From: Vulcanimicrobiota bacterium
Lineage (GTDB): Bacteria > Vulcanimicrobiota > Vulcanimicrobiia > Vulcanimicrobiales > Vulcanimicrobiaceae
Assembly (NCBI GenBank): GCA_013036105.1
Contig: JAAXCX010000004.1
Coordinates: forward strand, 62,001 to 126,000
Direction of reading: 5' to 3'
Length of the DNA stretch: 64,000 nt
This document shows positions 2,768-4,877 of this stretch, in pieces. Below the pieces are notes generated by a model, which saw only the letters and a program-made list of their open reading frames with translations, made no database searches and was not told the DNA's origin. The position numbers were made by a program, and so were the translations under genes. How positions within the stretch are numbered: the first letter of the stretch is position 1; every line of letters begins with the position of its first letter.

Positions 2768-2956
2768 ATGAAGTTGCTGCTCGAGATCTTAATCGCGATA
2801 ATCCTGCACCCGGTTGCATGGATACTGGTGCTGGTCGATCTCGCCGGCCGCGACGACCTGACGACTGCCCAGAAATTCATCTGGGGTGCCTTTTCGATTA
2901 TCTGGGGCATCGGTCCAATTCTGTATATCCTGGTGGGTGGCGGCAAGCTCTGGTGA
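2768..2956 (+). CDS. Small two-helix membrane protein
   Basis: The reading frame gives about 62 residues from the ATG at 2768. A GTG at 2750 is an alternative start adding six residues. It has two hydrophobic helices, about residues 2-23 and 40-55, joined by a short polar loop containing DLAGRDDLTTAQK. A TATACT hexamer ends seven bases before the ATG and no Shine-Dalgarno is seen, so a leaderless transcript is possible. It precedes the oxidase-ZIP gene on the same strand by about 40 bases. It resembles short phospholipase_D-nuclease N-terminal-like (PLDc_N) membrane proteins in layout, but no function is claimed. Confidence 0.6.
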   Translation: MKLLLEILIAIILHPVAWILVLVDLAGRDDLTTAQKFIWGAFSIIWGIGPILYILVGGGKLW

Positions 2957-2996: not shown

Positions 2997-4877
2997 GTGC
3001 CGAAGTCGATCGTCAGGCGAGGCTTATTCGCCTTCGCGCTTCTCTTGGGAGCGCTCAGCGTAGGCCCGGCCTGGGCCGATACGGACGAGACGACAGCGGG
3101 GGGCAACCCAGCCGCGATCGGCATGCAGCCCCTGCGCGGCGCCATCCCCGCCGCGACCCCTTACCCGGGCGAGTCCAAGCTGACACGCCGCGAAGACGGC
3201 ACGTTCGGAGCCGTTGCCCAATCCAGCGGCCGCACGCGCATTTTTCACCTGGTGGAGCGCGACGCTCCGTGGACGCTCCAGCCGGGACTGACCGTGATGG
3301 CCAAGACCTATAACGGCGTCGTCCCCGGCCCGACGCTGGTCGTGCATCAAGGCGATCGCGTCGTGATCGATTACCGCAACGAACAGAGCACTCCCGACAC
3401 GCTGCATCTGCACGGCATTCACGAGATTCCGGTGAGCATGGACGGCGTCGCCGGCATATCGCAGCCACCGGTGATGCAAGGCCAATCCTATCGGTACATC
3501 TTCACCGCGGATACGCCCGGAACGTTCCTCTATCACTCACACGACGACGAAGAAATGGTCAACAGCGGACTTTACGGCGCGATAGTTGTCTTGCCGGCGC
3601 ATGTCTCCGCATCGCAACGGTCGGATCGCGACGACGTCGAGGTGCTGTCGTCGTGGGCGATTCAAAGTTTAAGCGAAAACCATTTTACGATCAACGGAAA
3701 AGAGTATCCGTACACGGCGCCGATCGAGGTGCGTAAGGGCCAGCGCGTTCGCCTTCGCTGGATCAACATTTCCGGCGAAAGCATGCACACCATGCATACG
3801 CACGGGCATTATCAGCGGATCGTCGCGCGCGATGCGCAGCCGGTGACGTACCAAGATATCGAGGATACGGTTTTTTTGGGTCCCGGACAGCGCGTGGACG
3901 TCATCATCGAGGCCAATCAACTACCGGGAACGTGGCTCGTGCACTGTCACGTGATCGATCACACCGAGGACGGTTCGGGAATGCCCGATGGCTTGGTCAC
4001 CGCGATTCATTACCAGGGCACGCCGTACACCGGAGCCGCAATGAACACCGCGATGCGCGCGATGCTTCCCTCATTCGGCCGCACAAAGGGCGGACTATCC
4101 TTCGGCATGACGGTGCTCCTGGGTGCGATCGCCGGACTGACGATATTTCTCGGATTGCCGGTCGCGCGGATGCGCAACGTGTCGCCGTCGGTGATGGCGG
4201 CGCTCAATGCATTGGCGATCGGAATCCTGGTCTACCTCGTGGTGGAAATCGCCGGAAGCGCCACCGCGCCACTGGCGCAAGCGGCGCGTTTCTGGCACGG
4301 CGGCGGTGCGCCGGTGGGAGTCATTTCGCTTGCGGCCGCCTATGTCGGCGGCTTATTTGCCGGTCTTGTCGGGTTGGGTTTTGTTGCCAACAAACTCAGC
4401 AGCCGTGCCGCATCCTCGATCGATCAGCCGCTCGTGCTGGCCGCCGTCATCGCAATCGGAATCGGCGCCCATAATTTTGCCGAAGGACTAGCCATCGGCG
4501 CTTCGGCCGCAAGCGGTGCGACCGCGATTGCGATCGGCCTGATCGTCGGCTTCGCGCTGCACAACGCGACCGAAGGCTTCGGGATTGCCGCGCCGCTTTC
4601 GGGACGCGTCATTCCATCATGGCCGCAGCTCGGGTTGGCCGGGCTCGTCGCCGGCGGCCCCACGTTCTTGGGTACGGTGGTCGGCTACACGTTTCAGTCA
4701 CCGGTTCTCTCGGTGTTATTTTTGGCGACGGCGATCGGCGCGTTGGTTTTCGTGATCGGCGAAATTTGGGCCGTGCTGCGGCGTAACTTGGGGATTACGC
4801 CACTGGTGACGTCGATGCTGGCGTGCGGATTCTTGATCGCGCTGACGACGGAGTTAGTTCTCGACCTTAGCGGGTGA
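2997..4877 (+). CDS. Multicopper oxidase fused to a ZIP-family metal transporter
   Basis: The 626-residue protein joins two usually separate proteins. An N-terminal signal or anchor (about 1-27) is followed by a two-cupredoxin multicopper oxidase. Its four copper motifs are HLH at 137-139, HSH at 180-182, HTMHTH at 264-269 and HCHVIDH at 316-322, so all type 1, 2 and 3 histidine and cysteine ligands appear present. From about residue 369 comes a ZIP domain of roughly eight helices. It carries both metal-site motifs, HNFAEG at 492 and HNATEG at 522. The oxidase should lie outside the inner membrane, passing metal to the ZIP channel; iron, manganese or copper are all possible substrates. The start chosen is GTG 2997, where the signal peptide begins. 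An in-frame start 111 bases earlier would add an unlikely leader. The 3' end overlaps the convergent neighbour by 24 bases. Confidence 0.9.
   Translation: MPKSIVRRGLFAFALLLGALSVGPAWADTDETTAGGNPAAIGMQPLRGAIPAATPYPGESKLTRREDGTFGAVAQSSGRTRIFHLVERDAPWTLQPGLTVMAKTYNGVVPGPTLVVHQGDRVVIDYRNEQSTPDTLHLHGIHEIPVSMDGVAGISQPPVMQGQSYRYIFTADTPGTFLYHSHDDEEMVNSGLYGAIVVLPAHVSASQRSDRDDVEVLSSWAIQSLSENHFTINGKEYPYTAPIEVRKGQRVRLRWINISGESMHTMHTHGHYQRIVARDAQPVTYQDIEDTVFLGPGQRVDVIIEANQLPGTWLVHCHVIDHTEDGSGMPDGLVTAIHYQGTPYTGAAMNTAMRAMLPSFGRTKGGLSFGMTVLLGAIAGLTIFLGLPVARMRNVSPSVMAALNALAIGILVYLVVEIAGSATAPLAQAARFWHGGGAPVGVISLAAAYVGGLFAGLVGLGFVANKLSSRAASSIDQPLVLAAVIAIGIGAHNFAEGLAIGASAASGATAIAIGLIVGFALHNATEGFGIAAPLSGRVIPSWPQLGLAGLVAGGPTFLGTVVGYTFQSPVLSVLFLATAIGALVFVIGEIWAVLRRNLGITPLVTSMLACGFLIALTTELVLDLSG

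Follow-up and report, generated by a model that had tools for sequence, protein, structure and literature searches.

A multicopper oxidase-ZIP fusion protein of the Eremiobacteria with a predicted DtxR/IdeR-type operator at its gene start, and its probable role in iron uptake

In the window, by which we mean the whole stretch of 64,000 nucleotides that was analysed, a single open reading frame encodes in succession a signal peptide, a two-domain multicopper oxidase (MCO), a short methionine-containing linker and a ZIP transporter domain of eight predicted helices (Table 1). That the two halves form a real fusion in one open frame is confirmed: the first-pass annotation of this DNA, which had read the frame as a complete four-motif MCO continued without a break into a ZIP domain, is borne out by the open frame itself, by Pfam matches to both halves and by the conservation of the ligands, and the frame is likewise without stop or frameshift in 64 further genomes, except for one TAG in G124. 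The GTG start codon of the gene falls within a predicted operator, and most near relatives have no alternative start codon 5' of the signal peptide. Cleavage of the signal peptide is expected, by inspection, after AWA; the hydropathy peak comprises residues 9–27. The linker contains two to six methionines in all 53 unique fusion proteins. Modelling of seven sequences with AlphaFold2 gave a mean pLDDT of only 43, and therefore only the helix pattern of the model was used. Just 5' of the fusion lies a hydrophobic ORF of 62 amino acids (window positions 2768–2956, + strand), which is 85–89% identical in most relatives of the same genus; in G087 it is located elsewhere, and it is probably an unrelated neighbour.

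Table 1. Features of the fusion locus in the window, and loci in other genomes that are discussed in the text
Feature	Position	Strand	Basis
MCO-ZIP fusion gene, 626 aa, GTG start	2997..4877	+	open frame; 64 further genomes have orthologues with 46–94% identity across both halves
Predicted DtxR/IdeR-type operator TTAGGCGTGCCGAA	2991..3004	.	11/12 positions of TTAGGC-NN-GCCTAA; overlaps GTG start
Weaker second box copy TCAGGCGAGGCTTA	3013..3026	.	9/12 positions; 22 bp downstream of first
Sec-type signal peptide, residues 1–27	2997..3077	+	KSIVRR charged n-region, hydrophobic core, AWA/DTDE; by inspection
Cupredoxin domain 1, residues 77–200	3225..3596	+	Pfam Cu-oxidase_3; ligand conservation
Cupredoxin domain 2, residues 225–343, T1 copper site	3669..4025	+	Pfam Cu-oxidase_2; ligand conservation
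Met-containing juxtamembrane linker, residues 344–368, including AAMNTAMRAMLPSF	4026..4100	+	linker table
ZIP domain, 8 predicted helices, residues 369–625	4101..4871	+	Pfam Zip; BbZIP 8ght/7z6m alignment; hydropathy, loop charges, low-confidence model
CxxCH protein loci (other genomes)	L101 3354+, L104 3550+, L105 882+, L145 5440-6513 (-), L113-L142		
Box-bearing Nramp loci (other genomes)	L184-L186, L188, L194		

The profile search that the first-pass annotation had proposed gave matches to Cu-oxidase_3 (112.7 bits, residues 93–200) and Cu-oxidase_2 (84.1 bits, residues 228–329) in the oxidase half and a match to Zip, barely over the cut-off, in the C-terminal half. Domain 1 of the oxidase carries the trinuclear-copper motifs HLHG (137–140) and HSH (180–182) and has no T1 copper; the motifs of domain 2 are H264-x-x-H267-x-H269 and H316-C317-H318-x3-H322. 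The copper ligands of all four motifs (H137/H139, H180/H182, H264/H267/H269 and H316-C317-H318/H322) are invariant in the 53 unique fusion proteins, H316 excepted, which is kept in 52 of them and is a glutamine in the other (H316Q). The likely axial position of the T1 site is mostly Met, with Leu, His, Gly or Arg in other fusion proteins. With two cupredoxin domains and four copper motifs the oxidase half is a two-domain MCO, and two-domain MCOs (2zwn and 3g5w) are also its closest solved relatives; scores for the CueO/CopA families stay below the family cut-offs (copper_res_A, 126 bits versus 479; CueO, 60 versus 525). Two-domain MCOs are homotrimers with the trinuclear site built between the subunits, and the oxidase half of the fusion would, as its ligand layout requires by analogy, be trimeric as well. 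A close relative of the oxidase half is found in the one-contig genome G118 (L084, 5821–7146), where a single predicted C-terminal anchor helix replaces the ZIP domain and the box described below is missing.

The ZIP half scores 35.5 bits with Pfam Zip (residues 474–584; cut-off 35.1), which is marginal, and 33.0 bits, under the cut-off, in the six-frame search; the assignment therefore rests also on motifs, topology and conservation. The motifs are HNFAEG (492–497) in TM4, HNATEG (522–527) in TM5 and E589 in TM7, and residues H492, N493, E496, H522, N523, E526 and E589 are invariant in the 53 unique fusion proteins. Hydropathy, loop charges and the helices of the low-confidence model agree with a prediction of eight helices and an outer N terminus. 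The idea put forward earlier that the oxidase works at the outer face of the ZIP channel holds up, given the Pfam domains, the ligand conservation, and the hydropathy and loop charges. BbZIP from Bordetella bronchiseptica (8ght/7z6m), with which the sequence match is weak and yet in register across the metal motifs, has the eight helices that are predicted for the fusion. The HNxxEG motif of TM4 (HNLPEG in BbZIP) and an acidic side chain at position E276 are common to the two; BbZIP differs in having no oxidase domain and in its TM5 motif QDVPEG (QDxxEG), where the fusion has HNxxEG. BbZIP forms dimers (PMC9873690), in contrast to the trimers of the two-domain MCOs. The metal specificity is not readable from the ZIP sequence. 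No other ZIP was found in the window genome in a six-frame search, nor was a standalone ZIP found in any of 26 class members that lack the fusion; in the genomes checked a ZIP therefore occurs solely joined to the oxidase.

Of the 149 genomes of the phylum that were searched, 65 have both halves in one gene, and these 65 belong without exception to three families (f1, f2 and f3) of one class. The fusion is old within this class, the Eremiobacteria, and class-wide. It should be noted that the count is of genomes with one place covering both halves, that several more are severed by contig ends, and that G124 is included despite its in-frame TAG. An origin of the fusion by faulty assembly was rejected because the same fusion occurs in the 64 further genomes; a ZIP half preceded by a different sequence at a contig end (L012, 1–564) was left out as a possible assembly chimera or recombination. 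Outside the phylum, coverage consisted of one scan of genome contigs and a plasmid search. A fused oxidase-ZIP protein was unfamiliar to the first-pass annotation. The fusion is not confined to the window, being shared by 65 genomes; no published description of an MCO-ZIP fusion was found in open-access articles, where an archaeal pair of adjacent genes was found.

The operator at the gene start recurs with the fusion. TTAGGC-NN-GCCTAA stands at the fusion start with a score of 10 or more out of 12 matching positions in 40 of 42 distinct f1/f2 loci, usually as the top site of the locus, and a second copy 22–23 bp away is recurrent in many relatives. All 12 of the f3 loci have a dtxR-family gene ahead of the fusion on the same strand, with the box lying 5' of that dtxR gene. 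By chance a random 400-bp stretch reaches a score of 10 in approximately 1% of trials and of 11 in less than 0.1%. The box is very rare genome-wide: allowing at most one mismatch, there are two sites in the window genome, one at the fusion start and one at C3:110593, the latter being regarded as a chance match inside a long ORF that reads as leucyl-tRNA synthetase. The class box agrees with the published IdeR/DtxR half-site consensus TTAGGNNNNCCTAA (PMC8464063), and from its sequence the predicted box would be bound by a regulator of the DtxR/IdeR type.

IdeR boxes at repressed genes overlap the promoter or the transcription start, and some IdeR/MntR sites act as activators (PMC10317159, PMC11275975). 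If the box at the fusion were such an activation site, the protein might remove or oxidize excess iron, with outward flow or detoxification instead of uptake. We consider this very improbable, even though ferroxidases frequently have a protective effect: the box touches or overlaps the start codon, a position from which IdeR boxes repress, and an identical site is found in the identical position at genes for Nramp, an importer family.

The regulators themselves bear on the identity of the metal. All 12 fusion-linked regulators of f3 have Met10 and Cys102 and thus iron-type ligands. It is these sulphur ligands that separate iron-type from manganese-type members of the family (PMC10317159). Three g5 genomes contain, in addition to an M10/C102-type regulator, a separate D10/E102 regulator of the MntR type beside an Nramp gene. 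The single DtxR-type regulator of the window genome is E10/C102, intermediate between the iron and the manganese ligand sets, and in its best PDB match, 8pvt, the residues are acidic there too.

The chief rival to iron is manganese. Mn(II) can be sensed by regulators of the DtxR family, and the fusion could be an importer of manganese, or of both manganese and iron, with an oxidase that shields the site or determines the oxidation state of the manganese. For example, the repressor DR2539 of Deinococcus has been described as dual Mn/Fe (PMC3327659), the regulators next to MCO-ZIP gene pairs of Deinococcus QL22 and Rubrobacter are, judged by eye, acidic at positions 10 and 102 as in manganese-type members, E10 of the window-genome regulator and the acidic residues of 8pvt fit in, and Mn is a frequent substrate of Nramp, the box-bearing gene product that alternates with the fusion. 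However, Met10 and Cys102 in 12 out of 12 linked f3 regulators, the separate MntR-type regulator kept beside Nramp in the g5 genomes, and the presence of bfd-bacterioferritin genes and a TonB receptor under the same box in G125 all argue against manganese, which we therefore rate as unlikely.

The other genes under the box point in the direction of iron. The box regulon is tiny, as the perfect TTAGGNNNNCCTAA sites compiled for 27 relatives show: in G016, G017, G018, G027, G093 and G042 the genome's sole perfect site belongs to the fusion or to its operon, in G029, G038 and G055 perfect sites are at the fusion and at a gene for a CxxCH protein, and in G118, which is without ZIP, there is one at the CxxCH protein only. 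This exported protein of approximately 370 amino acids has a signal peptide and one CxxCH, and in 25 of 30 loci the box is at its start. Its gene is next to the fusion in G087, where the two diverge, and in G073, where they share a strand; in G124 the neighbourhood is looser; a box-bearing copy was not found in the window genome. The layout is similar to that of Cyc2 (PMC8406198), and since no Pfam or NCBIfam model matches the family, "Cyc2-like" is used here as a working label only. A search of plasmids with the protein as query gave no match. A CxxCH protein of 596 amino acids is encoded beside an MCO of approximately 500 amino acids in L144 (2180–5388; G000:C8), an arrangement that apparently recurs in many genomes of the class.

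An Nramp gene with the box at its start is found in G033, G077, G081 and G098, all of which lack the fusion, and in G097, which has it. It is as if Nramp and the fusion replaced each other within one regulon. This alternation is visible at the box only: by presence or absence there is no anticorrelation, Nramp being carried by 132 of 148 genomes. In G125, which also lacks the fusion, a TonB-dependent receptor has one perfect box in front of it and the bfd-bacterioferritin genes have another (L190, 2016–5334); here the short frame MIVCICNALRE...CGTCVPEIEGM, followed by a ferritin-family gene, is taken by its motif to be a bacterioferritin-associated ferredoxin. Nramp, the TonB receptor and bfd-bacterioferritin as remaining box targets point to iron. 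FeoB is absent from all genomes of f1–f3 and is found in 27 outgroup genomes that lack the fusion. This pattern is consistent with an iron-uptake role of the fusion and not independent support for it, because the two groups are clades and the pattern may go back to one event in a shared ancestor. It also counts against this role that the class has importers of the Nramp family as well.

Couplings of an MCO to a ZIP are known from other organisms as separate genes. The ammonia-oxidizing archaeon Nitrososphaera viennensis has a two-domain MCO (MCO1) and an adjacent ZIP (PERM_b; NVIE_000600/000590), which are mildly raised under copper limitation and for which joint copper uptake has been proposed (PMC7785015). 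The likeness to the fusion lies in the pairing of a two-domain MCO with a ZIP and in the proposed function in metal uptake; the differences are that there are two genes and that the proposed metal is copper rather than iron. On plasmids of Deinococcus, Rubrobacter, Bacillaceae and haloarchaea an MCO gene is followed by a ZIP gene, unlike in the single-chain fusion. Two of the pairs that were examined adjoin a DtxR-family regulator, and in Deinococcus QL22 two perfect TTAGGNNNNCCTAA boxes are in front. In the oxidases of the plasmid pairs the T1 Cys is in domain 1 (YHCH), whereas it is in domain 2 in the fusion, which makes them members of another two-domain class. The MCO-ZIP pairing therefore appears to have originated with more than one class of oxidase. 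Other plasmid matches, such as L048 (2960–4828), combine a two-domain MCO with a DUF4396 membrane domain in one fusion and are located next to copC/copD.

A plasmid-encoded protein of Deinococcus sp. KNUC1210 (WP_239052023.1; L043, 5944–7755) is likewise a single chain made of a ZIP and a two-domain MCO whose T1 site is in domain 2, but here the order is reversed and the MCO follows the ZIP. As a ZIP has both its ends outside, either order places the oxidase outside. No box was found at this reverse-order fusion, whose neighbours are copper and heavy-metal P-type ATPases. These neighbours, together with the methionines of the linker and the copper uptake proposed for the N. viennensis pair on the basis of its mild increase at copper limitation, would fit a fusion whose oxidase converts Cu(I) to Cu(II) for import by the ZIP, or which lowers the toxicity of periplasmic copper. 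For the Eremiobacteria we regard a copper function as improbable, because the fusion is associated with a DtxR-type box and iron-linked co-targets, not with copper regulators, and because the ORF clusters common to the fusion loci, when read by eye, contain no copper-resistance genes. Copper detoxification, offered as an alternative in the first-pass annotation, is thus disfavoured relative to iron acquisition by the box, the iron-type regulators and the box targets.

In yeast, with which the first-pass annotation drew its comparison, the multicopper oxidase Fet3 is coupled to the iron-handling permease Ftr1 at the outer face of the membrane. There, two proteins are involved, the oxidase has three domains, and the permease is of the FTR1 type, which is unrelated to ZIP; in a Pfam scan of the fusion protein no FTR1 match was found, its permease half being a ZIP.

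Taken with these data, the fusion is in our view an iron-regulated metal importer of the inner membrane, contained in one chain, whose oxidase acts on the metal at the mouth of the ZIP; we put the probability of this reading at roughly 0.6. Iron uptake is the role best supported by the regulation, and because the DNA switch at the gene resembles an iron switch the fusion is probably a self-contained iron-uptake machine. That iron is the substrate, that it moves inward and that the two halves are coupled is what we infer. When iron is scarce, a repressor of the DtxR/IdeR type would come off its TTAGGC-NN-GCCTAA box at the gene start, allowing expression of the fusion. The signal peptide would export the chain, so that the oxidase would be periplasmic and the ZIP, its N terminus facing outward, would cross the inner membrane. 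Iron would cross the outer membrane, in relatives possibly via the co-regulated haem CxxCH (Cyc2-like) protein, meet the oxidase at the ZIP mouth and then enter through the ZIP. The oxidase would turn over metal with O2, most simply as a ferroxidase or else as a guard by which Cu(I) or surplus Fe(II) is cleared next to the channel.

The normal substrates of ZIPs are divalent ions, and a ferroxidase ahead of a divalent-ion transporter is paradoxical. There may be several ways round: the ZIP could accept the oxidized ion, the oxidase could protect the mouth from Cu(I) or from Fenton chemistry, or it could draw electrons from the haem protein. A more specific form of the importer can be proposed only tentatively. 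It would be a class-wide, single-chain, oxidase-gated iron importer in which the attached multicopper ferroxidase oxidizes Fe(II) at the ZIP mouth and the ZIP takes up the product or owes its selectivity to the oxidase; together with the outer-membrane haem-porin it would form a two-gene system under an IdeR-type box in bacteria without FeoB.

Adjacent MCO and ZIP genes were known before; for the two in a single chain no description was found in the literature searched, and the predicted DtxR/IdeR-type operator at the gene is added here. The coupling of an oxidase to a permease for iron, which in yeast requires two proteins, is apparently found in bacteria in one chain and with an unrelated permease. 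Three items that are unconnected in the literature searched are thereby joined, namely the fused MCO and ZIP, an IdeR-type regulon of Eremiobacterota with very few members, and a haem protein that is Cyc2-like. The reason for which a ZIP might require an oxidase at its mouth can now be tested directly, and the finding suggests a route of iron uptake for a mostly uncultured class that lacks FeoB.
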